Source: a virus
Length of the DNA: 47,996 bases
IMG/VR virus record: IMGVR_UViG_3300033148_004167
Span: 1 to 47,996 of that record
Reading direction: 5' to 3' (one strand)
Below, piece after piece: positions 3,707 to 32,215 of this stretch. The notes under the pieces are model-generated. The model saw only the letters and a program-made list of their open reading frames with translations, had not been told where the DNA came from and made no database searches. Position numbers and translations under genes: made by a program. Position 1 is the stretch's first letter, and every line of letters starts with the position of its first letter.

Positions 3707-3943
3707 ATGAATTTAGAAGAAAAAGTAAAAGCTATTTTAATTGAAACGATTGGTGTGGGACTTAGGAAGGAAAACATTAAGACTGAAGCTACACTAGAAA
3801 GTTTAGGTCTTGATTCACTGGACCAGATTGAATTTATTATGGCTGTTGAGGAGGAATTTAATATTATAATAGAGGATAGTGATTATGAGAGTTGGAAAAC
3901 ATTTGGAGATGTAGTAATTTATTTAGAAGGGAGGAAGAAATGA
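3707..3943 (+). CDS. acyl carrier protein
   Basis: At 78 residues it has the usual ACP length and the four-helix pattern. The GLDSLDQIEF motif at 34-43 places the phosphopantetheine attachment serine at residue 37, followed by the acidic recognition helix (VEEEFNIIIED). A host transferase such as AcpS could load it; no such gene is in the window. ACPs carry acyl chains in fatty-acid, lipid A or polyketide synthesis. No acyl enzyme is next to it, so the partner must be a host enzyme or lie elsewhere. The SD is GGGAGGAGTA. The gene ends in GRKK-stop with ATGA overlap. Confidence 0.9.
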   Translation: MNLEEKVKAILIETIGVGLRKENIKTEATLESLGLDSLDQIEFIMAVEEEFNIIIEDSDYESWKTFGDVVIYLEGRKK

Positions 3944-7732: not shown

Positions 7733-8017
7733 ATGAAGGTGATAATGATAAACGAGAGGGCAGGAGTGGTGAAGAAGTTGATAGGTTCCATCATTAAAAA
7801 AGGATTTTTGAAAAAAGGATATATGTGCGGATTCGTGAACGGAATGAAGACAGCTATGAGTATAGTTCAGGGTAATGAAAACGAGATTTCTTTTGAAAGA
7901 AACGACTCATTAGAAAAAAGTAAAAGTGAGATTGTTGTTGCTACTAGTGATAAAGGGAAATTTGTAATATTAGTGTTTGATAATGAGGGGAACTTGGAGA
8001 AAATGGAAGAATTATGA
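7733..8017 (+). CDS. hypothetical protein (94 aa) at head of packaging module
   Basis: Basic N-terminal half with a helical, glycine-containing region (residues 8-45) and a C-terminal beta hairpin (EIVVATSDKGKFVILVFD). SD is CCGGGAGGAAAA. It overlaps the radical SAM gene by ATGA. I do not recognise it and do not see a small-terminase motif. Confidence 0.7.
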   Translation: MKVIMINERAGVVKKLIGSIIKKGFLKKGYMCGFVNGMKTAMSIVQGNENEISFERNDSLEKSKSEIVVATSDKGKFVILVFDNEGNLEKMEEL

Positions 8018-8880
8018 AAATAGGATTAGTAAATTTAGATAGTACAATTAAAAATATAGCACTTGAAAAAATAAGGTTATTCCATATTTTAAGAAATGAT
8101 ACAGTAGATGATATTACTCCTATCGAAAGTGATTTTTATGATAAGGTTTATTGTTCAAGTATTTTCTCAAATACCGATAAATCGTATGTAAGGAATAATT
8201 GGATATGTGGCGGTTCAGGCTTTGATATCAAAAGTAAACTTCCTAATGAAATAGAAATTATGAAACCGAAAATAAATATGGGATTTACTACAAGAGGATG
8301 TATTAGGAAATGTCCTTTTTGTATTGTTCCTGAAAAGGAAGGAAAAATTAGAATAGAAGGTGATATATATGATTTTTGGGATACTAAGTCAAAAAATATA
8401 ATTCTATTTGATAATAATATATTAGCATTACCGAAACATTTTGAAAAGATATGTTCCCAAGTAAAAAAAGAAAAATTAATAGTTGATTTTAATCAAGGTT
8501 TAGATATAAGATTACTGAATAGTAAAATCATAAAAATAATTAAAAGCATATCCCACGCTGAGCTACGTTTTGCTTTTGATAATTTGAAAGATGAAAAGTT
8601 TGTAATAAAAGGTATAGAATTATTAAAAAAGTATAAAATTAATCGTTCTATGTTTTATATATTGATTGGATTTGATACTTCATTCAAACAGGATTTATAT
8701 AGAGTTGAATTATTAAAAAAATTAAATCAAAATGTTTTTGTTCAAAAATATAATTATAATGGAAACTGGGAAAGAAGATATAATGAATTTGCAAGTTGGT
8801 GTAATCAACATAGAATGTTTAATGCATTTACATTTGAAGAATTTTGTGAAAAGAGAGGATTTAAATTAATTTATGACTAA
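8014..8880 (+). CDS. radical SAM family protein
   Basis: Contains the CxxxCxxC iron-sulfur motif at C96, C100 and C103 (GCIRKCPFC), preceded by a GFTTRGC strand as in B12-binding-type radical SAM proteins, and later segments typical of the TIM barrel (DFNQGLDIR near residues 162-170, LRFAFDN, FYILIGFDT). At 288 residues the core is present but the N-terminal cobalamin-type domain is short. The reaction is unknown; phages carry such genes near terminases and they might modify nucleic acid or protein. Overlaps the large terminase gene by 8 bp. Confidence 0.85.
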   Translation: MKIGLVNLDSTIKNIALEKIRLFHILRNDTVDDITPIESDFYDKVYCSSIFSNTDKSYVRNNWICGGSGFDIKSKLPNEIEIMKPKINMGFTTRGCIRKCPFCIVPEKEGKIRIEGDIYDFWDTKSKNIILFDNNILALPKHFEKICSQVKKEKLIVDFNQGLDIRLLNSKIIKIIKSISHAELRFAFDNLKDEKFVIKGIELLKKYKINRSMFYILIGFDTSFKQDLYRVELLKKLNQNVFVQKYNYNGNWERRYNEFASWCNQHRMFNAFTFEEFCEKRGFKLIYD

Positions 8881-14888: not shown

Positions 14889-14930
14889 CTAAAGCAAAGA
14901 GAATAAAATTTTTTATTTTTGGAGCTTTAG
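14889..14930 (+). promoter_or_regulatory. inverted repeat enclosing the capsid ribosome-binding site
   Basis: CTAAAGC (14889-14895) is the exact complement of GCTTTAG (14924-14930), whose last G is the first base of the GTG start. The SD bases GGAG (14921-14924) fall at the edge of the loop. If formed, the hairpin would partly hide the start of the protease-capsid frame and could lower its use relative to the internal start at 15491. Confidence 0.5.
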
Positions 14931-17503
14931 TGAAATTCAAAACAAACTATCTCGCAAGACTAATTGAATCAAAGGACAAAAACGGAAAAGAATGGGAAGT
15001 TGTCCTTATTCAAGCAGGCAAATCTCTTAATGGCAAAACATACCTCCCAGAAGTTCTTAAGAAAAGATTAAATCTTTTTGAGAATGCGAAAGCTTATGCT
15101 TATGAGTTCAAAGGAAAAATTTGGAATCATTTGCCTGAAGCAATTCGTAGAATTATCCCTGAAGGTTGCATAAAAAATATTGTTGGATGGTACGAGAATC
15201 CGTATTATGCAAGTTTTAAAGATGATTCGGGAGAAACCCAAGAAGGTATTCTTGCTAAATTCCATATAGCAGAAAATGCGGAATGGTTAAGAAAATTTTT
15301 AAAAGATGCTTGGGAGCATGGCAAAAAATCCTTGTTAGGTTTTTCTATTGATGGGGATGGCGATGTTAGCAAAGAGGGGATAGTAGAGGATATAAGAAGT
15401 ATAGATGAGATTACAATTGTTTCAAATCCGGCAGCAGGCGGTCAGCTTTGTAGATTGCTTGCGGGATTAGACATTATCGGGGAGGCTCAAATGGATTGGT
15501 TGAAAAAATTATACGAGTTTGCAAAAAGGATTAAGGAAGGTCTTATTGAGGGAATTGATATAGAGAAAATAACTCCTGAACAGGAAATTACTCTTATCAA
15601 AGGAATTGTTGAAAGTGAAGATATTTTTACAAAGGAATTAAAGGAAGATGCTTTTATTTCTGAATTTGAAAATAAGCTTATTGAAATGATTGAAGCCGGA
15701 AAAGTTAAAGAAGCTATAACTTATTTGAAGCAGTTGAAAAGTAAATTAACTGCTAGTGCTCCTGCAAAAACAGAACCTGCGAAAACCGAGCCTGCTAAAA
15801 CTGAACCAGCGAAAACTGAACCAGCGAAAACTGAACCTGCAAAAACAGAGCCTGCAAAGACGGAGCCTGCAGCTGGTACTACGGAATCAAAGACAAAAGA
15901 ACTTGATGAAGCTATTTTAAAAGCAAATAAGATGGTTGAGGAAACTCATAAAGCGAATTGCGAAGCTATGCTTATAAAGGTTCTTTCTGAATCGAAACTT
16001 CCTGAAGCTATAAAGGAAAAAGTAAAAGAACAGTTTAAAGAAAAGACTTTTGAGAAAGTAGAACTTGATAAAGTGCTTGATTCTGAAAGAAAGACACTTG
16101 ATAAACTTGCAGAATCACTTGGGATAGAAGGTTTAGGCAGCACGAAAGCTGAAGTTACTGCAGATGCACAGGATAAACTTCAGGTTGCTTTAGATTTAAT
16201 GGTTGACCCTGAAGCAGAAGTAGATACGAAACTTAAAGAATCAGTTGGTGGAAAAGGTTTTAGAGGATTAAAAGAAGCGTATATAGCATTTAATCCGAAT
16301 GACCCTGATGTTAGTATGGGTATTAATCCTTTAAAGAAAAGACTTACAGAAAATATTATTACTACTGATTTTTCATATGCTCTTGGAACTTCAATGACAC
16401 GTAAGATTGGGAAAGAATATGTTAAAGTTGAATTTATGTTTGACCCGATTGTAGCTAAAGTTCCACTTTCAAATTTTAAACAGCAAGAGATAATTAGATG
16501 GGGAGGTTATTCAAGGCTACCAACAGTAGCACAGAGAGGAACATATCAAGATTTATATGAGCCTCATGATGAACAGGCAACCTATACTCCGGGTAAGAAA
16601 GGTGGAGTAATTTATGTATCTCGTGAAACAATAAAAAATGATGACCTTCGTTTCATACAGACTATTCCTAAGAAGGTTGCAAAAGCTTCAAGGGCTACAC
16701 TTTCTTTTGATTTAGCTAATTATATACTTGCGAATTCTACTTATACACCTTCAGGTACAGCTTGGGCGACAGCAGCTTACAAAAATTATTCTACTGATAA
16801 TCTTTCTTATGACCATTTAACAGATGCTAAAGTAGAAATGAGAGGAAGAAGGGAAAGAGGAACATCACAGCTTGCAGGAACAGCAACTGCTGGTTCTTCT
16901 ACAACCTTAAGTGATACTTCAGAATCTGCGGTTATACTTGATAATGTTTTTGATGATTATTATCTTCGTATAGTTTATGGAACTGGAGCAGGACAGGTAA
17001 GATTAATTTCAAATACAGCAACAAGTGGGAGCACGTTTACAGTTACTCCAGCTTGGGATGTAACTCCTTCGACTGATTCTAAATATGAAGTTTCTGCTGC
17101 AAAAGCTAATGATGAAAGGATTGGATTAAAGTTAGAATATGTTGTACATGGTGATGCTCTTGAAGCGAAAATAGGTGACCTTACTACTGCACAGACTAAT
17201 CCTGAAGATGCAGCTTCTGGTCAACCTAATGCTCATAAGAAGGTAGTCCCGATTTATTGTCCTTACTTTGAAGGTGCAACTTATCAGTATTATTGGGCGA
17301 GTTTTGCAAATAAAGTACAGACGGATATTTTTGAAGTTGGTTTTGTTGACGGACAGGAAAATCCGATGGTTCTTGTTGCTGATGACCCGAAAGTTGGGAG
17401 TAATCTTACGGCAGATGATATTGTATATAAGATACGTTATGAATACGGATATACAATGGCTGATAATGCTGGTGCGAGATTAAACTTAGGAACAGGAGTG
17501 TAA
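14930..17503 (+). CDS. prohead protease - linker - major capsid fusion
   Basis: The 857-residue product combines three parts. Residues 1-180 resemble a prohead protease (candidate His67 in WNHLP and Ser139 in LLGFSIDG, then the typical ITIVSNPAAGGQL). Residues 188-440 are scaffold-like, with helices and seven PAKTE repeats near 278-315. From about 440 to the end is an HK97-fold-like capsid (TTDFSYALGTSM, VPLSNFKQQEIIRWGG, VSRETIKNDDLRFI). A beta-rich insert lies at 16875-17100. The GTG start has SD GGAG. A strong SD (GGGGAGG) with ATG at 15491 begins exactly after the protease part, so capsid without protease is probably also made. Confidence 0.85.
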   Translation: MKFKTNYLARLIESKDKNGKEWEVVLIQAGKSLNGKTYLPEVLKKRLNLFENAKAYAYEFKGKIWNHLPEAIRRIIPEGCIKNIVGWYENPYYASFKDDSGETQEGILAKFHIAENAEWLRKFLKDAWEHGKKSLLGFSIDGDGDVSKEGIVEDIRSIDEITIVSNPAAGGQLCRLLAGLDIIGEAQMDWLKKLYEFAKRIKEGLIEGIDIEKITPEQEITLIKGIVESEDIFTKELKEDAFISEFENKLIEMIEAGKVKEAITYLKQLKSKLTASAPAKTEPAKTEPAKTEPAKTEPAKTEPAKTEPAKTEPAAGTTESKTKELDEAILKANKMVEETHKANCEAMLIKVLSESKLPEAIKEKVKEQFKEKTFEKVELDKVLDSERKTLDKLAESLGIEGLGSTKAEVTADAQDKLQVALDLMVDPEAEVDTKLKESVGGKGFRGLKEAYIAFNPNDPDVSMGINPLKKRLTENIITTDFSYALGTSMTRKIGKEYVKVEFMFDPIVAKVPLSNFKQQEIIRWGGYSRLPTVAQRGTYQDLYEPHDEQATYTPGKKGGVIYVSRETIKNDDLRFIQTIPKKVAKASRATLSFDLANYILANSTYTPSGTAWATAAYKNYSTDNLSYDHLTDAKVEMRGRRERGTSQLAGTATAGSSTTLSDTSESAVILDNVFDDYYLRIVYGTGAGQVRLISNTATSGSTFTVTPAWDVTPSTDSKYEVSAAKANDERIGLKLEYVVHGDALEAKIGDLTTAQTNPEDAASGQPNAHKKVVPIYCPYFEGATYQYYWASFANKVQTDIFEVGFVDGQENPMVLVADDPKVGSNLTADDIVYKIRYEYGYTMADNAGARLNLGTGV
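15491..17503 (+). CDS. internal in-frame product: scaffold-capsid without protease
   Basis: Met188 of the fusion has its own SD (GGGGAGG ending five bases before the ATG) and is in frame. Translation here would give 670 residues comprising the scaffold-like helices, PAKTE linker and capsid. This parallels the known lambda arrangement in which the scaffold Nu3 starts in frame inside the protease gene C. It would allow hundreds of capsid copies per few protease copies. Confidence 0.6.
   Translation: MDWLKKLYEFAKRIKEGLIEGIDIEKITPEQEITLIKGIVESEDIFTKELKEDAFISEFENKLIEMIEAGKVKEAITYLKQLKSKLTASAPAKTEPAKTEPAKTEPAKTEPAKTEPAKTEPAKTEPAAGTTESKTKELDEAILKANKMVEETHKANCEAMLIKVLSESKLPEAIKEKVKEQFKEKTFEKVELDKVLDSERKTLDKLAESLGIEGLGSTKAEVTADAQDKLQVALDLMVDPEAEVDTKLKESVGGKGFRGLKEAYIAFNPNDPDVSMGINPLKKRLTENIITTDFSYALGTSMTRKIGKEYVKVEFMFDPIVAKVPLSNFKQQEIIRWGGYSRLPTVAQRGTYQDLYEPHDEQATYTPGKKGGVIYVSRETIKNDDLRFIQTIPKKVAKASRATLSFDLANYILANSTYTPSGTAWATAAYKNYSTDNLSYDHLTDAKVEMRGRRERGTSQLAGTATAGSSTTLSDTSESAVILDNVFDDYYLRIVYGTGAGQVRLISNTATSGSTFTVTPAWDVTPSTDSKYEVSAAKANDERIGLKLEYVVHGDALEAKIGDLTTAQTNPEDAASGQPNAHKKVVPIYCPYFEGATYQYYWASFANKVQTDIFEVGFVDGQENPMVLVADDPKVGSNLTADDIVYKIRYEYGYTMADNAGARLNLGTGV
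15766..15875 (+). repeat. PAKTE pentapeptide repeat linker
   Basis: Seven tandem copies of Pro-Ala-Lys-Thr-Glu separate the scaffold-like helix from the capsid part. The codons vary between copies (GCA/GCG/GCT, ACA/ACC/ACT/ACG), so the DNA is less repetitive than the protein. Such Pro/Ala/Lys/Glu linkers are extended and flexible. Confidence 0.9.
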
Positions 17504-17600: not shown

Positions 17601-18560
17601 ATGGGAATGGTAAATTTTAGCGGTGGAATCATGAGTGCAGGAATTCCAGTTTTAGGTTCACAAGCAATAATGTCGCAGGGAGATAGTTATTTCTTAGACC
17701 CTTTAAATGGAAGTGATGGAAACAATGGTAAGAGAATTGATAAAGCATTTAAAACCTTGGCAGCTGCTTATACAGCTTTAACAGCAGGACAGAATGATGT
17801 TCTTTATTATTTATCAGGAAGTACATCTCTTAGTATGGCAGCAACGCTTGATTGGGCTAAATCTTATACACATCTTATTGGAATTGGTGCTCCTTCTCAC
17901 GATTCACAGAGAACAAGAATTTTCCATAGTGCTAATTTTAGTCCTATGATTACGGTTAGTGGCTCTGGCTGTAGATTTGAAAATCTCTATTTTTCTTATG
18001 GAGATGGTGGAGCAGATAATCATATTTTAATGACTGTTACAGGAAGTAGAAACTATTTTGGAAATATTCATTTTTCAGCAATGTCTCATCAGACAGAAGC
18101 AGATGATGCGGATAGTATTGCAGTATTTTTAAATGGTACCGAATCTAATCTGTTTGACCATTGTAATTTTGGGAATCAGAATGTTACAAGAGGAGATGCA
18201 AACACTTTAATTTCACTTGATGGTACTACAAAAAGAAATAAGTTTGCAAATTGTTTATTTCAGGCGCAGACAGATGCGGCAACTCCTACTTTAGTTAGAA
18301 GTGAAGACTCCGCAGCAATAGACCAGCTTGGTTGCTGGTTTTATGAATGTTTATTTTGGGTTCAGGGTACAGCAATAGACCAAGCATTTGATTTACATGC
18401 CTTGGGAGCCAATAGACAGATAGCTATTACTGGTGCTTCTACAATGTTTGTAGGATGTACGGATGTAGCAGATGCAACAGGCGACCAGCAAATATTCTGC
18501 CCGAATCCGACATCAACTTCAAACATAATATTACTGGCAACAAGTCCAACGGCAGCGTAA
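17601..18560 (+). CDS. beta-helix (pectate-lyase-like) protein, likely decoration or head fibre
   Basis: The 319-residue product opens with a short glycine-rich tag and then 'YFLDPLNGSDGNNGKRIDKAFKTLAAAY', the standard entry to right-handed beta-helix phage proteins, followed by repeated short strands with N, G and F ladders (ENLYFS, GNIHFS, DHCNFG, ANCLFQ, YECLFW). It has no signal peptide, unlike the fibre-like genes downstream. Its place directly after the capsid gene suggests a capsid-associated protein; this is inference. SD AAAGGAGGGTAAAG is strong. Confidence 0.75.
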   Translation: MGMVNFSGGIMSAGIPVLGSQAIMSQGDSYFLDPLNGSDGNNGKRIDKAFKTLAAAYTALTAGQNDVLYYLSGSTSLSMAATLDWAKSYTHLIGIGAPSHDSQRTRIFHSANFSPMITVSGSGCRFENLYFSYGDGGADNHILMTVTGSRNYFGNIHFSAMSHQTEADDADSIAVFLNGTESNLFDHCNFGNQNVTRGDANTLISLDGTTKRNKFANCLFQAQTDAATPTLVRSEDSAAIDQLGCWFYECLFWVQGTAIDQAFDLHALGANRQIAITGASTMFVGCTDVADATGDQQIFCPNPTSTSNIILLATSPTAA

Positions 18561-18576
18561 GGAGAGATAAACTAAT

Positions 18577-18795
18577 ATGAATAAATTATCGAAAAAAGCA
18601 GAAGAAAAGAAAAAAGCTGCAGAAGAATTGAAGAAAAAGAAAGCAGCTGAAAAGATAAAAGCTGATGAAGATGCGAAGAAGAAAGAAGAAGAAGCAGAAA
18701 AGTTGAAGGAAACTAAAAAAACAAAAAAGGCTGAAACTCCTGAAGAGGATAAAAGACCTTTTGAAACTGGAAATCCTTCAACTGATTTGGGGTAG
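18577..18795 (+). CDS. highly charged Lys/Glu helical protein (72 aa)
   Basis: Residues 1-50 consist almost only of K, E, A and D and predict one long single helix or coiled coil; the C-terminus is short and polar. Similar charged helices follow capsid genes in some phages, but no family can be named. SD GGAGAGATAAAC. Confidence 0.65.
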   Translation: MNKLSKKAEEKKKAAEELKKKKAAEKIKADEDAKKKEEEAEKLKETKKTKKAETPEEDKRPFETGNPSTDLG

Positions 18796-18964: not shown

Positions 18965-19339
18965 ATGAAACACAGATTTTCCAACCATAATGTTTTAACT
19001 TCTGCTCAAAGAAGTGCCGGAACCGGAACTACAAACACTGTAAATGCAAGTTCAGAGGAATATGTTTTTGTTGAAACTATTATAACTGCAAAGAGTGGTG
19101 CTCCAACTCTTGATTTAACTTTACAATGCTCTCCTGTTGACCCTAATATAGATAATACAAAATGGGCAACTGCTGCGGTAGAATCACAAATTACAAGTGC
19201 TGCTATAGGTACTACATATCCTAAAATTTTTAGAAGTGTAGCTCATCCTGATTTTGTTGGATGGGTAAGAGTATTTTATAAGGTAGCAGGAGCATCAACT
19301 CCAAAAATAACTTTTGCTATAAATCTTCAAACAAAATAA
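18965..19339 (+). CDS. small virion-region beta protein (124 aa)
   Basis: A beta-rich protein with the pattern 'veTiitAKSGAPTLDLTLQcSPvdP......WatAAveSQITsA....YpKIfrsvAHPdFvgWVRVfYKVAGastPkiTFAInlqtK'. It resembles small structural proteins of unknown function found between capsid and tail genes. SD TAGGAGGGTATT. No signal peptide. Confidence 0.65.
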   Translation: MKHRFSNHNVLTSAQRSAGTGTTNTVNASSEEYVFVETIITAKSGAPTLDLTLQCSPVDPNIDNTKWATAAVESQITSAAIGTTYPKIFRSVAHPDFVGWVRVFYKVAGASTPKITFAINLQTK

Positions 19340-19354
19340 ACGGAGGATTATTTA

Positions 19355-20491
19355 ATGAGAAAAATTATTATTTTACTTTTTACGATTTTTGCTTTTTCTG
19401 GATTGGCTTTTTCTTGGACAGATGTAACTGGTTCAACTGTAGGTTCAAGTGGAGAAGCAGTAGGAGGACAGGAAATAAAAGATATACAGAATGATGTGCA
19501 TGATATTCCTCATTCTGCTTGGAATGTTTATAATGTTTCATCTGGTCCATATTCAAATCAAAATTGGATTTATCATGAAGGGGAATGGAAACCTTGGGAA
19601 GCTTCTAATATTGATTTAGAGGATGTGGTAACTTCTACTCCTGCAATTTCAGTTCGTTCTTTTCCTTATGATTTTGATGGTACTAATTGGGATAAAGCTC
19701 AAATTAATAATTGGTTATATGGGGTAAGCCGGAGTACAGGCATTGAGAAATTAAGGCAAGAACTTTATGGAGTATCTCGAAGCACGGATGTTGAAAAGCT
19801 TCGACAGGAATTATACGGAATTGCACGTTCTACAGATGCTGAAAAACTTAGACAAGAACTATATGGAGTTAGTAGGAGTAGTGATATTGAAAAACTTAGG
19901 CAGGAATTATATGGGGTTGCTCGTAGTACAGATATGGATTATATTATTCATCTTGCAAGCAGTATTGTTTATGGGCAGTATGGAATAGCAAGGTCAACAG
20001 ATATTGAAAAGTTAAGACAAGAATTATATGGAGTAGCAAGAAGTACAGATGCAGAGAAAATCCGGCAGGAGTTGTATGGAGTTATGCGTTCTACGGATGC
20101 AGAAAAATTAAGACAGGAACTTTGGGGTGTTGCTAGAAGTTCTGATATAGCATTATTAACCAGCATTACAGACAATAAAGATGTAGTAGTTACTTCCGGG
20201 GTAGTTAAAGAGTTTCAAGTTCCAACAGCAACCGGAACTGTACTGGATGTAGGCACAGGAGCAGTTACAACTTGGACTTTCCCGGCAGGAGCAGTTGAAA
20301 TTTTTCTTGAATCAGATGAAACAAATACAGATATAACAAGGTGGCGTTATTGGAATGAGGATGTGAAAGTAGCAGGTAATAAATTACACGTAGGTGATGT
20401 GTTAATTTTAAATAAATATAATGGTACAACTTTATTTTTTCAAACTGAAGCAGGTGACCAAAAAATAATAGTTCAGGTGCTTTACGAATAA
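19355..20491 (+). CDS. exported 16-residue-repeat protein
   Basis: Residues 1-20 form a Sec signal peptide (MRKIIILLF...GLAFS). Residues of about 120-267 hold nine copies of a 16-residue unit close to LYGVSRSTDVEKLRQE, with copy five carrying an insertion. The last 100 residues form a beta domain ('FQVPTATGTVLDVGTGAVTTW...') like small fibre or host-interaction domains. The repeat units use many different codons, so protein sequence is preserved while DNA identity is lost. It may be a rod-like spacer displaying the C-terminal domain. Function unknown. Confidence 0.8.
   Translation: MRKIIILLFTIFAFSGLAFSWTDVTGSTVGSSGEAVGGQEIKDIQNDVHDIPHSAWNVYNVSSGPYSNQNWIYHEGEWKPWEASNIDLEDVVTSTPAISVRSFPYDFDGTNWDKAQINNWLYGVSRSTGIEKLRQELYGVSRSTDVEKLRQELYGIARSTDAEKLRQELYGVSRSSDIEKLRQELYGVARSTDMDYIIHLASSIVYGQYGIARSTDIEKLRQELYGVARSTDAEKIRQELYGVMRSTDAEKLRQELWGVARSSDIALLTSITDNKDVVVTSGVVKEFQVPTATGTVLDVGTGAVTTWTFPAGAVEIFLESDETNTDITRWRYWNEDVKVAGNKLHVGDVLILNKYNGTTLFFQTEAGDQKIIVQVLYE
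19714..20155 (+). repeat. nine imperfect 48-bp protein-level repeats
   Basis: Each unit encodes a variant of LYGVSRSTDVEKLRQE. Arginine alone is encoded by CGG, CGA, CGT and AGG/AGA in successive copies, and leucine and serine codons vary as widely. Unit five is extended by eight residues (IIHLASSIVYGQ region). Confidence 0.9.
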
Positions 20492-20505
20492 CATCGGAGG
20501 AATAA

Positions 20506-23181
20506 ATGAAAAGATTACTATTAGGATTTTTATTTTTTATACTTCTATTTAATATAGGAGTTACAAGTAATAAAATAGCATACCCTAGAGCGAAATCTGT
20601 AAGATTAGTTGTTGGATTTACTTCTGATTGTGATTATATTTGTGATGGAGCTTCTGATTATGTGCAGATACAATTAGCGTGTGATAGATTAGCTACTCTT
20701 GGAGTTGCAGGGATAGTCAAATTGAGGGAGGGTGTATTCGCTTGCGATAATGGTTCGGGACATAATATTGAAACTAAAATTTCTTCTACTACTATAATGG
20801 GTAGTGGAAACGGTACGATATTGAACCACGTCGGAACTATGCCTTTGATTGATTTAGACCACGATAATTGTAAACTAACAAACTTACAAATATATTCAGA
20901 TGGAACTCCTACCTCCGATTGTATTGATATTAATGACCTAAATTGTGAAGTTTCAAATTGTTATATTAATTTATTAGGTGATAACTGGGGTTCTGCTCCA
21001 ATAGGAATATCAAATGCTGCTAACTCAAAATTTATAGATAACATAGTTTTAGTACCAAATGAAACAGATATAGAAGCTATTAGTATAAATGGTACTTCAG
21101 ATGATGTTATGGTTAGAGGGAATACGATTGTAGCTGGTTTTGAGGGTATAGATATTAGTGATGGTGATGATATACAAATTTCAAATAATAGAATTATTTC
21201 TGCTACAGGGATAGAGTTATCAAATGCAAACGCAACAAGAACTATGATAGCTGGGAATGATTTTCAAGGTTGTACTGCAGCTGTAACAGATACAGCAAGT
21301 ACAACTCCGAGAATTAGAAATAATAAAACTACAGATGGAACTTGGTTACCTGAATCAGATGATATTGATTTAGGTGGAAATAATATTACTAACGGAGGAA
21401 CTTCATCTATAGACGGAACAGGAATATATAATGTAGGATTGGCAACAGATACAATTTCAGTTCTCGCAGGAAGAGCTGGAGAGAATTTAGTTGCAGGGCA
21501 AGCAGTATATCAAAGTGGTGTATTTGGGAGTAATTTAGAATTTAGCCTAGCAGACCATTCTTCTCTTACTCACGATATAGCAGAAGCTGTTGGGATATGT
21601 TCATTAACAGCAAGTAATAATCAGCCGACATTAGTTATAACTCAGGGGAGATTAGAAGGAATTAAAACTAATTATTCTGGATGGGCGAATAATGATGAAT
21701 TATTTTTAGGATTAGATGGAGCATTAACAGATATAAAGCCTTCAAGTGGTACAATACAATTTATAGGATATGTTGGGAGAGTTCATACAAGTGCAGGTTC
21801 TATAGTAGTACAAGTACAACATCCTATTTATATAATAACATCTCCTAATGGAGAGAATATAACAATCAGAGCTGGAGATGAAGCATCTACATGGTTTGAG
21901 GATGGGCAAAGTAATCAATTAATGTCAGTAAATAAAAGTTCAGTTGAAGTTCGTATTCCTGTAACTATTGATGATGTTTTAACAGTTACTGATAATGTTG
22001 ATATAGATGATTTTTTAAGAAGGATTGGTGACCCTAATACATACCTTCGATTTCAAGCTGCCGATAATGCGAAAATAGCAGCAGGCGGGCTTAATGGTTT
22101 AGAACTTGATGAAAATACAGTTGATACAATATTTCTTGGTGATGATGATTGGGATTATATAGTTATAGGAGATACAACTACCCCAACAGTTGATGTATCA
22201 ACATTTAATTATTCTACTAAAGTATGGTCTTTTCCCGGTAAGGTAGAAGCAAAGGGGGATGTAGTTGCTGCAAATTATTCTAGTCCGGGAAATATAGAAA
22301 TAACTGGGACAATAGATACGAATGGAACTCCTACAGAAGTATACGCTATGAATCAGGATGTGCAAACTTCAGATGATGTTGAATATAATAGTGTTGAAAC
22401 AAGTACAATTGTTGCTATTGATGGTGATGGTGTTTGGTTTAGAACTGACGGAGGAACAGGTGGATTTAATTTGCATGATGATGGTTCTATGGATGCGAAG
22501 GGAAGCTGGAATATGGAAGGCCACGATGTAAATGGAGCTGATGATATAGCAGGAGCTTCCCTTAGTATTACAGGAGCATATTCAATAGGTGGAGCTGATG
22601 GAAATGATGGAGATGTATTAACAACAGATGGAGCAGGCGGGGTAACATTTGAAGCTCCCGCAGGTGGCGGTAGTGGAAAAGCTGTTATGTGGTTTTTACC
22701 CGGTTCTGCTAAATTACCTAATTCAAATTTTCCGGGACTTGAAAAAGTAACAAGAACAAATGGAGTAGATAATGTTTTAAAATTTGTATCTTCAAGTACA
22801 GCAACAGATGAACACGCTTATTATCAAACTGCTATACCTGATTTTTATGGAGGAGACGATTTAACAATTACTATATATTCTGTATTAAGAACTGCTGAAG
22901 GAGCAGATAAGGTTGCTGAAGTAAATATAGAAGCTAGGACAGTTGCTCATGATGGAGCGTGGGATGTAGCATATACAGCTATAATTACAATAGATGTAGA
23001 ACCTACAGGTGTAGCAGAAGATATGTTAATTTATTCAGGGGCGTGGGATGTAGATGGTACTTTACAATTAGTGGCAGGACAGCCATTGAGTTTAGATATA
23101 TGGGTAGATTGTAGTGATTCAACATTTTACCTAGGAGATTCAGAGTTGGAAATAATCTGCATAAAAATCGAGGAGGATTAA
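20506..23181 (+). CDS. large fibre-like beta-helix protein with signal peptide
   Basis: The 891-residue product starts with a signal peptide (MKRLLLGFLFFILLFNIGVTS). Residues 25-290 form a pectate-lyase-like beta helix ('CDGASDYVQIQLACDRLATLG', then N/G/I ladders). Residues of about 310-440 resemble fibre repeat domains ('AGENLVAGQAVY...LVITQGRLEGI'). Glycine-rich segments ('GADGNDGDVLTTDGAGGVTFEAPAGGGSG') lead to a C-terminal beta-sandwich domain (about 740-891), typical of receptor-binding tips. An exported signal on such a protein is unusual for a virion component. SD ATCGGAGGAATAA. Confidence 0.82.
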   Translation: MKRLLLGFLFFILLFNIGVTSNKIAYPRAKSVRLVVGFTSDCDYICDGASDYVQIQLACDRLATLGVAGIVKLREGVFACDNGSGHNIETKISSTTIMGSGNGTILNHVGTMPLIDLDHDNCKLTNLQIYSDGTPTSDCIDINDLNCEVSNCYINLLGDNWGSAPIGISNAANSKFIDNIVLVPNETDIEAISINGTSDDVMVRGNTIVAGFEGIDISDGDDIQISNNRIISATGIELSNANATRTMIAGNDFQGCTAAVTDTASTTPRIRNNKTTDGTWLPESDDIDLGGNNITNGGTSSIDGTGIYNVGLATDTISVLAGRAGENLVAGQAVYQSGVFGSNLEFSLADHSSLTHDIAEAVGICSLTASNNQPTLVITQGRLEGIKTNYSGWANNDELFLGLDGALTDIKPSSGTIQFIGYVGRVHTSAGSIVVQVQHPIYIITSPNGENITIRAGDEASTWFEDGQSNQLMSVNKSSVEVRIPVTIDDVLTVTDNVDIDDFLRRIGDPNTYLRFQAADNAKIAAGGLNGLELDENTVDTIFLGDDDWDYIVIGDTTTPTVDVSTFNYSTKVWSFPGKVEAKGDVVAANYSSPGNIEITGTIDTNGTPTEVYAMNQDVQTSDDVEYNSVETSTIVAIDGDGVWFRTDGGTGGFNLHDDGSMDAKGSWNMEGHDVNGADDIAGASLSITGAYSIGGADGNDGDVLTTDGAGGVTFEAPAGGGSGKAVMWFLPGSAKLPNSNFPGLEKVTRTNGVDNVLKFVSSSTATDEHAYYQTAIPDFYGGDDLTITIYSVLRTAEGADKVAEVNIEARTVAHDGAWDVAYTAIITIDVEPTGVAEDMLIYSGAWDVDGTLQLVAGQPLSLDIWVDCSDSTFYLGDSELEIICIKIEED

Positions 23182-23483
23182 TGAAAAAATTAATTTTAGT
23201 AGCAGTAGTTTTAGGTCTTTTAGGTTTAGCGACATCGGCATATCTTGAGGCAACATCAGTAAGTTCAGGGGAAAAAGATACATTTATTGAGGATTCAACA
23301 AAGCTACAGAAAGCAACAAATCTTTTAGTTGCAGCAAGAGTAGCTCTGGCAGATGACCTTGAAGTTGTAAGAGCAACATATTTAGCTGCAAGACAGACGG
23401 TATCAGATAATCATCAGCCCGGAATAGATGCTTTGGTTGCAGAGATAGCAAGCATAGAAGCTTCGCTTGAAGGGATAAAATAA
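23181..23483 (+). CDS. small exported helical protein
   Basis: Signal peptide at residues 1-20 (MKKLILVAVVLGLLGLATSA), then 80 residues rich in A, E, L and V predicting a helical hairpin or coiled coil. The start shares a base with the previous stop behind AGGAGGATTA. Function unknown; part of the exported cassette. Confidence 0.75.
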   Translation: MKKLILVAVVLGLLGLATSAYLEATSVSSGEKDTFIEDSTKLQKATNLLVAARVALADDLEVVRATYLAARQTVSDNHQPGIDALVAEIASIEASLEGIK

Positions 23484-24251
23484 ATGAGAGTTTTTTTAAT
23501 TCTACTTTTTTGCACAAGTATAGCTTCTGGAGCTATACATTATAGAGGTACAACAGGTGATTATTTAACTCATACAAATAATATAAAATTTGCTCCTGAA
23601 GCTGGAGCTTGGAATCTTTGTTTCTGGTTAAGAGTTCCTGCTGATTCTGCTAATGAAAAACTTTTTGTACCCTACTTTCATTATAATGGCGGGGGCAATC
23701 AAATTCTTATGTACTGGCAACCTAGGCGTGATGCTGCTGGCGGTTCTAATATGTTTTTTAGAGCAAGAGGTGATGGAGGGGATGAATCAATATCAGATGA
23801 TATAGGAACTAATTATGCTGATGGTGTATGGCATCATTATGCATTTACAAGACCTGCAAGTGGAACAGGAGATTGGAATTTTTACATTGATGGAGTTTCT
23901 ATATTAACGGGTGCAAGAATAAACGCAAATAGTATTAACCCCGGACAACCTGTTGAGATTGGTGAAAATGTAGATGCAGGTGGAGCTAGTATGTATGGTG
24001 ATATTGCTGGGTATCTTATAGTTAAGGGCAGGGAATTAACGAAAGCTGATATTGATAATATGTTAATTGGTAAATGGGTTTCTGATGATGATACTATGTG
24101 TTATTATCCTATGGAAGAAGGAGCTGTTAATATAGGACAAGACGGAGCAACTGCAAGTGATTATTCAGGGAATAACTTACACTTAGATGATTCAGGAACT
24201 TTAACGTATATAGATGGACCACCTATTTTGTGGAATAGAGGAGGAGAATAA
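23484..24251 (+). CDS. exported LamG / concanavalin A-like protein
   Basis: Signal peptide at 1-17 (MRVFLILLFCTSIASG). The rest matches LamG/pentraxin-like lectin folds: 'GAWNLCFWLRVPADS', 'DGVWHHYAFTRPASGTGDWNFYIDGVSI', 'GDIAGYLIVKGRELTKADIDNML', 'YPMEEG...DYSGNNLHL'. Such domains bind glycans or proteins. It follows the preceding stop directly. A role in surface glycan binding is likely by fold; target unknown. Confidence 0.85.
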   Translation: MRVFLILLFCTSIASGAIHYRGTTGDYLTHTNNIKFAPEAGAWNLCFWLRVPADSANEKLFVPYFHYNGGGNQILMYWQPRRDAAGGSNMFFRARGDGGDESISDDIGTNYADGVWHHYAFTRPASGTGDWNFYIDGVSILTGARINANSINPGQPVEIGENVDAGGASMYGDIAGYLIVKGRELTKADIDNMLIGKWVSDDDTMCYYPMEEGAVNIGQDGATASDYSGNNLHLDDSGTLTYIDGPPILWNRGGE

Positions 24252-24520
24252 TGTTTATATCAAAGAAAGTAATTAGATTATTTTTATTAGCGATAGTTTG
24301 TTTTATTGTATTTCAGGTTTATGCAGCAATCGTTAAAGAACAGGTTGTAAATTTAAAGAAGGTTAATTTTAATCTTGAAGCTGGAGATAAAATTTATGTT
24401 TTTGATAAAGAAGCAACTAAACTTAGAATATATGGTGCTCCTCCGGGAACAAAGAAATATTATTTAAAAGTTCCAGAAGGAAAAATGTTTGAAGGTACTT
24501 GGACTTTAAGAGATAAATAA
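24251..24520 (+). CDS. small exported or anchored protein (89 aa)
   Basis: N-terminal hydrophobic segment (residues 8-27, ending VYA) that is either cleaved or a membrane anchor, then a small beta domain ('FNLEAGDKIYVFDKEATKLRIYGAPPGTKKYYLKVPEGK'). No lipobox is present. One-base overlap with the LamG gene. Function unknown. Confidence 0.7.
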   Translation: MFISKKVIRLFLLAIVCFIVFQVYAAIVKEQVVNLKKVNFNLEAGDKIYVFDKEATKLRIYGAPPGTKKYYLKVPEGKMFEGTWTLRDK

Positions 24521-24532
24521 AGGAAAATTAAT

Positions 24533-24808
24533 ATGGCAAATGGAAATGGTTTTAAACTTTCTTGGTATCCAGTAATAATAGCTTTAGGATTTCTTTTTAC
24601 AGGTATAGTTACATTTACTACAATAAAAATGACAGCAAAAGCTACAGAGAAAAAAGTAGAAATAATGGAACCAAAAGTAATTGACCATGCAGAAAGAATA
24701 GGTAAAATAGAAACAGCACATAAATATATAGGTGAGAATTTAAAGGATATGAAAAAAGAACAGTCAGAACATAGAAAATTATTAGTAGAAATAAATAATA
24801 AATTATAA
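24533..24808 (+). CDS. membrane-anchored coiled-coil protein
   Basis: One membrane helix at about residues 11-32 and then a coiled coil of about 55 residues ('AERIGKIETAHKYIGENLKDMKKEQSEHRKLLVEINNKL'). The layout resembles inner spanins and small phage membrane proteins of the XhlA type reversed. It closes the run of genes with export signals. Lysis or surface role cannot be decided. Confidence 0.7.
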   Translation: MANGNGFKLSWYPVIIALGFLFTGIVTFTTIKMTAKATEKKVEIMEPKVIDHAERIGKIETAHKYIGENLKDMKKEQSEHRKLLVEINNKL

Positions 24809-24821
24809 TGGTAATTAAAAA

Positions 24822-25547
24822 ATGAGTAGTTATAAACTTACCGATTTTAATACAGCAGTAGATTATAGATTAAAACAATCAGGTGATGGAGGAGCATCAG
24901 ACCCTCTTCCAACTGCTACGATTGATGCTATAATTCAAACAGATTCTACTAATATTTATTCAAATCATAAACCATTTATGAAAACTTCTGATGTTTCTGC
25001 AGGTAGTTCATATTCAGTTACGATTAATGATACAAATTTTCCGAGTTGGTTAGAAGGTTTTTCAGATATAAAATTTATAGAATATCCGGCAGATGAATCT
25101 CAAAATCCAAATGATAATGAAATTTGTTTTGATGGTTGGCAATATTATGAAGCATCTGGAGTAAGGTATGTAAGATTTCTTAATATAACTCCTTCAAGTG
25201 GTACAATTAGATTTACTTATAATATAAAACATTCGATAGCTGCAGCTGCAGTAGATACTGTTTTTTATGATAATGATTTTGCAGCATTTTGTGATTTAGC
25301 AGCTTCTATTTGTTCTATAAGTATTGCTTCTAAATTTGGATATTTTACTGATTCTACGATAGGAGCAGATGCAGTAGAATATAGAACTAAAAGTGATATC
25401 TGGAGAGCTATAGGGAAAAACTTTTATGATTCTTATATAAGATATATGTTTCCTAAAATTTCATCATCTTTTATGCAAAAAGATTTCGATACAGTTTATG
25501 GAGAATTAAGTTTAACGAGATTAACACATGCTTCCGGGACAAGATAA
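24822..25547 (+). CDS. head-tail connector-like protein
   Basis: The 241-residue product begins 'KLTDFNTAVDYRLKQ', has a beta-rich middle and a helical C-terminal half ('FAAFCDLAASICSISIASKFGYFTDS....ADAVEYRTKSDIWRAIGKNFYDSY'). The position directly before the HK97 gp10-like gene is that of the head completion adaptor. Assignment relies on order and general pattern. One-base overlap with the next start. Confidence 0.65.
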   Translation: MSSYKLTDFNTAVDYRLKQSGDGGASDPLPTATIDAIIQTDSTNIYSNHKPFMKTSDVSAGSSYSVTINDTNFPSWLEGFSDIKFIEYPADESQNPNDNEICFDGWQYYEASGVRYVRFLNITPSSGTIRFTYNIKHSIAAAAVDTVFYDNDFAAFCDLAASICSISIASKFGYFTDSTIGADAVEYRTKSDIWRAIGKNFYDSYIRYMFPKISSSFMQKDFDTVYGELSLTRLTHASGTR

Positions 25548-26691: not shown

Positions 26692-28101
26692 ATGGGTGGA
26701 ACAACTGGAAAATTAACTCATGTTGGAGTAGCACCGGAGGTAACTTTTGGAACACCAGTAGGAGCAACTTCTTATCTAAAGTATAGTTCTGAATCTATAA
26801 CACTTTCTATTGAAGATTTAATGGAAGCTTCTTTAAATAATATTAGAGATGAAGGTGCTTCTTATTATGGTTTAAAAACAATAGCAGGTGATTCTGTTCA
26901 TGAAGTTCATCCAGCAGGTTTAGGAATTTTACTTAGAGGTGCCTTAGGTGCTCCAGCTACGACGAATAATACTGGAAGCTATACTCATGTTTATACACCT
27001 CTTGCAACGAGAAATAGGGCTACTGGCACAGCTATAGCAGGGACAGATGGTACGAAAATTGTTGTTACTGCAACTCCTTATACTGTAGATGAACATATAG
27101 GTAGGTGGGTTCATGTTATTACAGGAACGGCAGCAGGGCAGTGGACACCTATAACAGATAATACGACTTCTGAATTAACTTGTGTAACTTCTCCGGCAGC
27201 AGTATCTACTGATACTTTTGAAATTCTTGATGGTCCACAACATTGTTCTTTACCTCCTTATACAATAGAAGTTAGCAGAGATATGACCGGAGCAACTCCG
27301 GCTTTTCAATATAAAGGAATGGCTTTAAATAATTTATCTTTTACTTGTGGTGTTGGTGCAAAAATAATGTCAGCAACAGCTTCTTGGCTTGGGCAGAATT
27401 GGGGAAATATTGCAGCTACAAGTCCGAGTTTACCGACTACTGAACCTTTTATGTGGGATGATTGTGTTCTAGGAGTGGGAGGAGTAGCTGAAGCAACAGC
27501 CACAGGAGGAAGTGCATCAACTTTAGAAGATACAGGAACTTGGACAGCAACCGCACAAATAGGAAATATTGTTTTAACTACCGGAGGAACTGGACCAAAC
27601 CAGTGCCGGAAAATTATATCTAATACAACCGATGCTTTAACAGTATCTCCTAATTTTACAGTAGCTCCAGATAATACAACTACTTATAAAACTTTTATTG
27701 CGAGTAATTTAATTGAAACTATTACTTTTGGTTGGAATAATGGATTAGTTCCGGTTCCTACTATGAATAATACAAATTATATTGCTCAAATTTTAAATGA
27801 TGGATTTAGAACAGGAACGATTTCTAAAACTATTATTCCTGAAGATGTAGTTGACCATTCAACTTATTATGCAGGATGGACTACAAGGGAATGGCTATTA
27901 TTTTTTCATGGAGCACAAATTACTGGTGCTCATTATTATGATTTAGTATTTCATTTTCCTAAAGTTCTTTTTACTGCATATCCGTTAAATGTTGGTGGCG
28001 GTGGAAGGATAACAGTTGCGGCAGGTGCTAAAATAAAGTATGATGCTTCTGCTGGATATTTTTGTAAGACTATTTTACAGAATAACACAAGCGCATATTA
28101 G
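26692..28101 (+). CDS. major tail (tube) protein with two inserted beta modules
   Basis: Starts 'GKLTHVGVAPEVTFGTPVGATSYLKYSSESITLSIEDL', typical of phage tail tube proteins, and keeps tube-like strands (SVHEVHPAGLGILLRGALG, THVYTP, PPYTIEVSRDM, LSFTCGVGAKIMSATASWLGQ). At 469 residues it is larger than usual because two copies of a 70-residue beta module are inserted at 27018-27234 and 27487-27710. These likely project from the tube surface. Followed by a strong terminator. Confidence 0.85.
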   Translation: MGGTTGKLTHVGVAPEVTFGTPVGATSYLKYSSESITLSIEDLMEASLNNIRDEGASYYGLKTIAGDSVHEVHPAGLGILLRGALGAPATTNNTGSYTHVYTPLATRNRATGTAIAGTDGTKIVVTATPYTVDEHIGRWVHVITGTAAGQWTPITDNTTSELTCVTSPAAVSTDTFEILDGPQHCSLPPYTIEVSRDMTGATPAFQYKGMALNNLSFTCGVGAKIMSATASWLGQNWGNIAATSPSLPTTEPFMWDDCVLGVGGVAEATATGGSASTLEDTGTWTATAQIGNIVLTTGGTGPNQCRKIISNTTDALTVSPNFTVAPDNTTTYKTFIASNLIETITFGWNNGLVPVPTMNNTNYIAQILNDGFRTGTISKTIIPEDVVDHSTYYAGWTTREWLLFFHGAQITGAHYYDLVFHFPKVLFTAYPLNVGGGGRITVAAGAKIKYDASAGYFCKTILQNNTSAY

Positions 28102-30384: not shown

Positions 30385-30752
30385 TGGCTGATACAATGAG
30401 ATTGACTTATACAGGAACTGATGTGAATTTTGCTCCGGGATTTGGATTTGCAAAACCTGATGTTTTAGATGTTATACATAAAAGAGCAAAGGATGGAACA
30501 TTAAAATCTTATAAACATTTTTATAAATTTCGTTGGGAATGTCCAGTTTCTTGGTTCGATTCAACAGATGCGGATAATATAAATTTATGGTGGAGTAATG
30601 TTTATGATTGCACTTATATTCCTGATTTAATAAATGCTCCGGGAACTTCTTATACTGTTAGAATTGTAAATTCAAATAGACCTCTTTTAAGTTTTACTGG
30701 ACCAAACTGGGAAACTTATTATTCAGGAACAATAATTTTGGAGCAAACTTAA
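30384..30752 (+). CDS. minor tail protein (distal tail candidate, 122 aa)
   Basis: Beta-rich product ('LTYTGTDVNFAPGFGFAKPDVLDVIHKRAKDGTLKSYKHFYKFRWECPVSWF') resembling small minor tail proteins located between tape measure and tail tip genes. One-base overlaps at both ends show tight coupling. The exact role is inferred from position. Confidence 0.65.
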   Translation: MADTMRLTYTGTDVNFAPGFGFAKPDVLDVIHKRAKDGTLKSYKHFYKFRWECPVSWFDSTDADNINLWWSNVYDCTYIPDLINAPGTSYTVRIVNSNRPLLSFTGPNWETYYSGTIILEQT

Positions 30753-32215
30753 TGCAGAATATAGCAGGAGCATTACAAACAAAATTTGAATTAGGGACTT
30801 CTACTCCTGAAAGAGTTTTTAATTATAAAGGAGTTGATAAATCTTCTTATGTAAGTTCTTATGGGGTTGTTTCAAGAAATGCCGAATCAATAACTGCCGG
30901 GAATGTTGCACTTCAGATTATAAATACTGACCAAACTTGGAATGATATTTTAGCAAATCCTGAAAATCATATTGGAGTAGGATTAGCTGCTTCAACTATT
31001 CAATTGGGATATACAGGGACTGGATTCATAACTTTATTTACAGGTAAATTAGATGATTCTGATTTTGCGGAAGTTGACAGTGTAGGCTTAACATTTAGGG
31101 ATGCGATTTCAGATTTTACAAAAAAGCACGTTGGTTCTTCTCAAAGTCCTGCAGATTATTATTCTTCTGCGAGTTATACGATTTTTACAGATGCAGATTG
31201 GAGTCCCGGAAGAAACCCTGCTGATATAATTTGGCATTTATTAACTTATTGGGGAGGATTAGACGCAACGGAAGGAGCAGGAAATACTGATATAGATTGG
31301 ACGACATTTTCTGAATTTAAAAATACTCTTGCTTCGATTAATTATTTAGTACAAGCTAAATTTGAAGGTCAGACATTAACGAATGCTTTAAAAGAAATTT
31401 GTGGAAAAACTAATTCAACAGTATTTTCAGAAATGGATGGAAAGATATATTGTAGGTATTGGTTGGGTTCAGATACAGCTGATATACAAACATATACTGA
31501 TGCTAAATGGTTTGATTTACCGAAAGTTAATCAAGATAAACTTGCTATAAAAAATAGTTATGAAGTTTATTTTGGATATGCTTTTCCGCAAATAAATACC
31601 GGAGTTTGTGCATCTGCTACTGCTACAACAATTACAGTTGCTGGCAATCCGTGGGTTGCTGGTGCTTATAAAAATATGTTTGTTCATATTCAAACAGGAA
31701 CAGGAGTTGGGCAAACCAGAATGATAGCAAGTAATGATACGAATACTTTAACGATTAATTTTGATTGGGCAGTTAATCCGGTTGCAGCTGATACGTTTGA
31801 AATTTTAGATTATAAAGAAGCAACTTTTGCAGGTTCTTATACAAGTGATGATGCAAATTCTCAAACAGATTACGGAGTACAAAAAGAGATAATTGATTCT
31901 AAAAATGTTTGGTTTAAGGATTCATCTTCAGCACAAGGATATGGAGAACGAGCTGTAATAGCTAATAAAGACCCTATTCAATACGTAACCTTTACTTCAG
32001 GTCTTTACGCTTATAGACAGCAATTATGGGATGCTTTATATCTTACTGAAAGTTTTTACTCTTGGACTAATCAAGGTTTTAGAATTGAAGATTTATCTTA
32101 TGATATTAATAATGAAAAAGTAAGTATTGAAGGAAGGCTCACAACTTTATATCATTATCTTGTTCTTGACCATGCTGATTATGGTAAATTAGATTCAGTA
32201 AATGTTTTAGCTTAA
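30752..32215 (+). CDS. tail tip / baseplate hub protein with inserted beta module
   Basis: The 487-residue product shows 'RVFNYKGVDKSSYVSSYGVVSRNAESITAGNVALQIINTDQTWN', 'IQLGYTG.....LFTGKLDD' and 'LTNALKEICGKTNSTVFSEMDGKIYCRYW', patterns seen in tail tip hub proteins with a gp27-like fold. A 70-residue beta module, the same as in capsid and tube, is inserted at about 31602-31810. No lytic domain is visible. Confidence 0.75.
   Translation: MQNIAGALQTKFELGTSTPERVFNYKGVDKSSYVSSYGVVSRNAESITAGNVALQIINTDQTWNDILANPENHIGVGLAASTIQLGYTGTGFITLFTGKLDDSDFAEVDSVGLTFRDAISDFTKKHVGSSQSPADYYSSASYTIFTDADWSPGRNPADIIWHLLTYWGGLDATEGAGNTDIDWTTFSEFKNTLASINYLVQAKFEGQTLTNALKEICGKTNSTVFSEMDGKIYCRYWLGSDTADIQTYTDAKWFDLPKVNQDKLAIKNSYEVYFGYAFPQINTGVCASATATTITVAGNPWVAGAYKNMFVHIQTGTGVGQTRMIASNDTNTLTINFDWAVNPVAADTFEILDYKEATFAGSYTSDDANSQTDYGVQKEIIDSKNVWFKDSSSAQGYGERAVIANKDPIQYVTFTSGLYAYRQQLWDALYLTESFYSWTNQGFRIEDLSYDINNEKVSIEGRLTTLYHYLVLDHADYGKLDSVNVLA

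Follow-up and report, generated by a model that had tools for sequence, protein, structure and literature searches.

Predicted Sec Signals on Cement- and Fibre-Family Proteins Encoded between the Capsid and Adaptor Genes of a Tailed Phage and Its Relatives

INTRODUCTION

In the textbook view, tailed-phage particles are assembled entirely in the cytosol, and the slot beside the capsid gene is a place where these phages often hold genes for capsid "cement" proteins. In epsilon15, the cement gene gp8 lies next to the capsid gene, as does a cement-family gene in the slot of the phage described here; gp8 has no signal peptide, whereas its family members in relatives of our phage often carry Sec signals. 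To our knowledge, the cement proteins of BPP-1, epsilon15, Pam1, GP4, and KHP30 have not been described as exported. Virion proteins made with Sec signals are familiar from the coat proteins of filamentous phages, which are membrane-extruded ssDNA phages; the present phage has such signals too but is a tailed dsDNA phage with a terminase, a portal, and a tape measure. Phage-coded exported proteins within or near late genes are likewise represented by lambda Lom and Bor and T5 Llp, yet these are single outer-membrane proteins or lipoproteins, while here we describe a run of soluble fibre- and cement-like proteins. A literature search, with most subscription journals outside its coverage, turned up no account of tailed-phage decoration proteins that bear signal peptides.

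RESULTS

Gene content between the capsid and adaptor genes

The window, that is, the whole stretch of DNA analysed, is the 47,996-base IMG/VR record IMGVR_UViG_3300033148_004167 of an uncultivated virus, classed as linear. It holds a tailed-phage gene set comprising a terminase (8873), portal (10696), head morphogenesis protein (12129), protease-capsid fusion (14930), adaptor (24822), gp10-like gene (25547), and tape measure (28630). The fusion and the adaptor border a slot with the following content:

14930..17503, + strand: protease-major capsid protein fusion (phrog_29592, phrog_133, phrog_4523); upstream slot border
17601..18560, + strand: beta-helix-like protein without a signal, fold judged by eye; homologues in most near relatives
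18577..18795, + strand: small charged protein; a comparable small gene at the same place in most near relatives
18965..19339, + strand: capsid cementing family protein without a signal (family profile A7; phrog_427)
19355..20491, + strand: predicted exported repeat rod, signal MRKIIILLFTIFAFSGLAFS followed by WTD; both the signal and the start of the mature protein are conserved (8/8)
20506..23181, + strand: predicted exported 891-residue spike/fibre-like protein with a beta-helix segment, signal MKRLLLGFLFFILLFNIGVTS followed by N
23181..23483, + strand: predicted exported small protein (Sec test), signal MKKLILVAVVLGLLGLATSA followed by Y
23484..24251, + strand: predicted exported LamG/ConA-like protein (PF13385, E 2e-13), signal MRVFLILLFCTSIASGA followed by I
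24251..24520, + strand: predicted small exported or signal-anchored protein, shortly 5' of the adaptor; position conserved
24533..24808, + strand: membrane anchor with coiled coil; L016 and the closest relative have a protein of similar architecture
24822..25547, + strand: head-tail adaptor, homologues of which adjoin a gp10-like gene in 60+ loci; downstream slot border

The capsid profile also matched two tail-block genes of the window (26692-28101 and 30752-32215), probably on account of an insertion domain that they have in common with the capsid protein. Elsewhere in the window, a radical SAM protein (8014-8880; phrog_9298, E 4e-61) is encoded immediately 5' of the terminase gene, and the phage also codes for an acyl carrier protein (3707-3943; PF00550) and a family-2 glycosyltransferase (1089-1949). 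The near-identical leader TTAAATCATAGGGGGT occurs at 88-107, 462-481, and 689-708, 5' of the consecutive genes 108, 482, and 709.

Predicted export signals in six consecutive genes

The initial annotation had described a run of five genes starting with Sec signals or N-terminal signal anchors, followed by a sixth encoding a membrane anchor and a coiled coil. We called signals by rules of our own (a positive n-region, a hydrophobic core, and small residues at -3/-1) together with conservation; all signal calls reported here are of this kind. The run was confirmed: 19355, 20506, 23181, 23484, and 24251 satisfy the Sec/signal peptidase I rules for n-region, core, and -3/-1 residues, and for 24533 a membrane anchor was preferred over a signal peptide. 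The test flagged 8 of the 78 window genes, 6 of which form the consecutive run 19355-24808, compared with 4 of 192 antisense or out-of-frame open reading frames of the same AT-rich window and 35 of 3,900 shuffled sequences. These null rates rule out AT-rich composition as a chance source of the signals. A purine-rich ribosome site lies 5' of the signal-bearing ATG in 19355, 20506, 23181, and 24251, and the start of 23484 abuts the stop of 23181; when we looked for the downstream start sites that the initial annotation had raised as a counterargument, no in-frame start with a ribosome site bypassed any of the signals. What that annotation had lacked was the capsid-cement-family gene preceding the run (18965) and the recurrence of the run in relatives.

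The individual products turned out to be largely as first described. The LamG domain of 23484 was borne out, and signal-bearing LamG proteins were also found in L010 and L016. The beta-helix proposed for 20506 was recovered as a NosD-type segment barely over the cutoff. The C-terminal domain of 20506 is common to a tail-block gene of the closest relative, and signal-bearing homologues of the protein are present in two other phages (L012:6292 and L101:15365). The middle domain of 20506 is possibly of the cement type, as suggested by an alignment to Phage_cement_2 of 93 columns with 30% identity and a pairwise E of 0.005, at a probability of only 7.5%; a Pfam search gave no hit. The AlphaFold model of the 19355 protein had no usable fold (pLDDT 34), and no homologue of 23181 was found among the relatives searched. 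A lipobox of the kind present in superinfection-exclusion lipoproteins (Llp/Cor type) was looked for in the six proteins of the window and was absent. We also considered 24533 and 24251 as a spanin pair and rejected it, 24251 having no o-spanin lipobox cysteine; the match of 24533 to the Rz-like spanin family phrog_739 was weak (E 0.048).

Recurrence of the exported set in near relatives

Initial single-sequence scans gave few or no relatives, and tblastn searches of 50,697 phage records with 20506, 19355, the adaptor, the jelly-roll protein, the L029 cement protein, and the L017 fibre protein as queries gave no match. Loci were collected more widely with capsid and portal profiles from viral contigs and bacterial genome assemblies. 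The comparison with relatives that the initial annotation had proposed showed that seven related phages have a comparable exported set in this slot. In the closest of them, IMGVR_UViG_3300032053_000095 (L004), the capsid protein is 71% identical and the exported set occupies the same place; this slot was read across the ends of an apparently permuted contig, where the junction interrupts one frame; a terminal repeat was not seen. The other six are L010, L012, L016, L099, L101, and L102.

Gene content of the slot varies among these phages while the order is broadly conserved. The capsid gene is followed by a beta-helix protein and a small charged gene (each in most of them), the cement-family gene corresponding to 18965, the rod of the 19355 family, and a fibre or spike, joined in several phages by a LamG protein or lipoproteins; the series closes with a small membrane protein and, shortly 5' of the adaptor in most of these phages, a small exported protein. 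Members of the 19355 family have a variable shaft, and in all eight phages they start with a signal peptide. Right after it, the mature protein always opens with W followed by T or I, and GST comes a few positions further on (W[TI]...GST). Most exported slot products are without a second membrane anchor or lipobox, although lipoprotein-type signals are present in some genes of L012 and L016. In the Microcystis phage Mae-JY22, whose capsid protein is about 30% identical, the adaptor follows the capsid gene directly. A need for disulfide bonds was rejected as the reason for export, the cysteine content not being clearly raised except in L010. On the reverse strand of L004, a repeated ACGCCGGAG-type leader was seen 5' of several consecutive small genes beyond the lysis region.

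Enrichment of predicted signals in the slot of the wider family

Both borders were present in 66 loci; the slot contains genes in 30 of them, and one or more signals in 23 of these 30. The labelling of slots is approximate, as L023, L061, L079, and L087 had been scored as non-exported or empty yet hold jelly-roll genes with signal-like N-termini. Export-like N-termini were found in 45 of 81 slot genes versus 36 of 962 virion genes flanking the slot in these loci (Fisher p of about 2e-34, only indicative because the loci are related), and in 20 of 34 slot genes when the five near relatives then known were left out. On the capsid-protein tree the exported state requires about nine changes and has therefore arisen or vanished repeatedly. 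In the distant phages L104, L106, L108, L111, and L113-L115, the slot is empty or its genes have no signals. The control phages lambda, HK97, and epsilon15 yielded a single signal peptide, that of lambda lom, among 63 virion-block genes. Slot genes that by eye resemble methyltransferases or glycosyltransferases were noted at L108:14500-16612 and L106:14182, where no exported slot genes are present.

The loci from bacterial assemblies lie mostly in Proteobacteria and deltaproteobacterial groups, including desulfobacterial genomes. Two of them, L077 and L079, come from a cultured strain, Dongia deserti SYSU D60009, in whose genome they are probably prophages. The presence of several relatives in bacterial assemblies, together with fibre, beta-helix, and LamG architectures like those of bacterial adhesins, would fit lysogenic conversion, in which the exported proteins serve the host in adhesion or biofilm formation and not the particle. 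We consider this unlikely, since the genes are tightly packed on the same strand within the late virion block and their families match those of phage virion proteins, not adhesins.

Cement and fibre families among the signal-bearing proteins

The profile of the 18965 family, which includes the signal-bearing L028 member, matched the BPP-1 cementing protein (PDB 3j4u_H, E 1.1e-4) and no other structure, and proteins of the family match phrog_427, to which epsilon15 gp8 belongs. Both 18965 and its exported relatives are thus linked by family to Bbp16 of BPP-1 and to gp8. Five members (from L028, L125, L126, L129, and L130) carry a signal, in which a hydrophobic N-terminal stretch closes with A, followed by [DE]D. 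Each of the five matches phrog_427; a profile built of these five alone did not recover 3j4u. In L029:12112, a Phage_cement_2 domain (PF09956, over the cutoff) is preceded by a signal peptide, and proteins of L028 and L125 are slightly under the cutoff; the profile of these signal-bearing proteins also matches the neck-fibre protein 8keg. L017:11744 is a fibre protein of the GP4 Gp80 type with a signal.

A further family, a jelly roll of about 150 residues, comprises 19 open reading frames, all of which lie in the slot after correction of starts and have a signal-like N-terminus. Its model (pLDDT 88) resembles domains of phage fibres as well as the capsid cement proteins of Pam1, GP4, and KHP30 (Z 8.6-9.0); the jelly roll is a common fold, however, and unrelated proteins score equally well. 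Profile comparison gave no clear link between this family and cement families. The GP4 cement proteins are trimeric and sit on the shell (PMC9698820). Judged from these families and their predicted signals, a single locus is repeatedly exporting cement or fibre proteins.

Because signal assignment is prediction only, the hydrophobic N-termini could in principle be non-functional as signals and act as structural arms of cytosolic virion proteins. We regard this as very improbable. In the alignment of 16 jelly-roll members the signal part is the variable one (27% identity on average versus 46% in the mature part), yet alanine stands at -1 of an AxA-type site in 16/16; the mature start is also conserved throughout the 19355 family, and ribosome sites precede the signal-bearing starts.

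Noteworthy here are the Wzy_C (O-antigen-ligase-like) membrane genes, over the cutoff at L028:8930, L029:12591, L043:15414, and L125:3270, each of which adjoins an exported cement or jelly-roll gene. In L017 and L130, TPR proteins (L017:11294 and L130:7053) occupy the position that Wzy_C genes hold elsewhere. The Wzy_C neighbours would suit an envelope role, in which proteins with virion-type domains and signals act late at the envelope, masking receptors or blocking superinfection; with receptors masked, progeny would not be lost on debris, as is known for T5 Llp. The lipoprotein-type signals of L012 and L016 and the LamG domains of several relatives point the same way, and the C-terminal domain that 20506 has in common with a tail-block gene could compete for the same ligand. 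However, cement-family domains are unexpected in receptor masking, and a late virion location is unusual for exclusion genes, lambda lom and bor being exceptions. Moreover, the five signal proteins of the window would remain in the periplasm, as they have no lipobox and a domain for outer-membrane translocation was not found. On balance an envelope role, at somewhat lower odds, is the main rival to decoration of the particle. Ligases for protein O-glycosylation are also found among Wzy_C proteins, and the adjoining gene could instead glycosylate the exported slot protein.

DISCUSSION

The slot between the capsid and adaptor genes is, as read from its gene families, a decoration or cement locus, many of whose products are predicted to be made with cleavable Sec signals. 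Export of these proteins is well supported by the conservation of the signals and of the cleavage-site residues in relatives. It suggests that part of the coat, or something built of coat parts, leaves the cytoplasm before the cell bursts. The new element is the export, as the cement and fibre kinds of protein are already known.

We favour, at a rough probability of 0.4, a reading in which the mature slot proteins would coat the particles from the periplasm at lysis. After export the proteins would be processed by signal peptidase I, and soluble fibre, lectin-fold, and cement-type proteins would collect in the periplasm; once holin and endolysin open the cell, they would attach to the exterior of finished capsids, so that dressing of the particle would end outside the cytosol. 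In the window phage, the cement protein 18965 would remain in the cytosol, with an outer layer formed by the exported rod, spike, and lectin. Of the two options offered by the initial annotation, completion of the virion outside the cytosol has thus gained ground, the exported slot genes including capsid-cement families, while a role on the cell surface retains some support from the Wzy_C neighbours and lipoproteins.

The preference for decoration comes from the identity of the exported proteins and their locus of origin. It is supported by the conservation of slot and signal, by exported cement-family members at the very locus where epsilon15 has its cement gene, and by the rarity of second anchors and lipoboxes. 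It is weakened by the missing signal of the window's own cement protein, by the dilution that lysis would bring unless binding is tight, and by the ties of the jelly-roll structure matches with unrelated proteins. The lipoproteins, the membrane coiled coil, and the Wzy_C neighbours also count against decoration, as they look envelope-directed.

Tentatively, then, and with less than even odds, we may be dealing with a tailed-phage lineage that completes its capsid outside the cytosol, with Sec-exported and trimmed cement and fibre proteins, in some phages perhaps glycosylated by Wzy_C proteins in the periplasm, dressing the particle at lysis. The question can be tested, related loci (L077 and L079) being present in a cultured strain. 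Cement relatives with conserved export signals, from several families at one locus, would either break the rule of assembly in the cytosol or show virion parts at the envelope, and either answer would be new within the literature searched.
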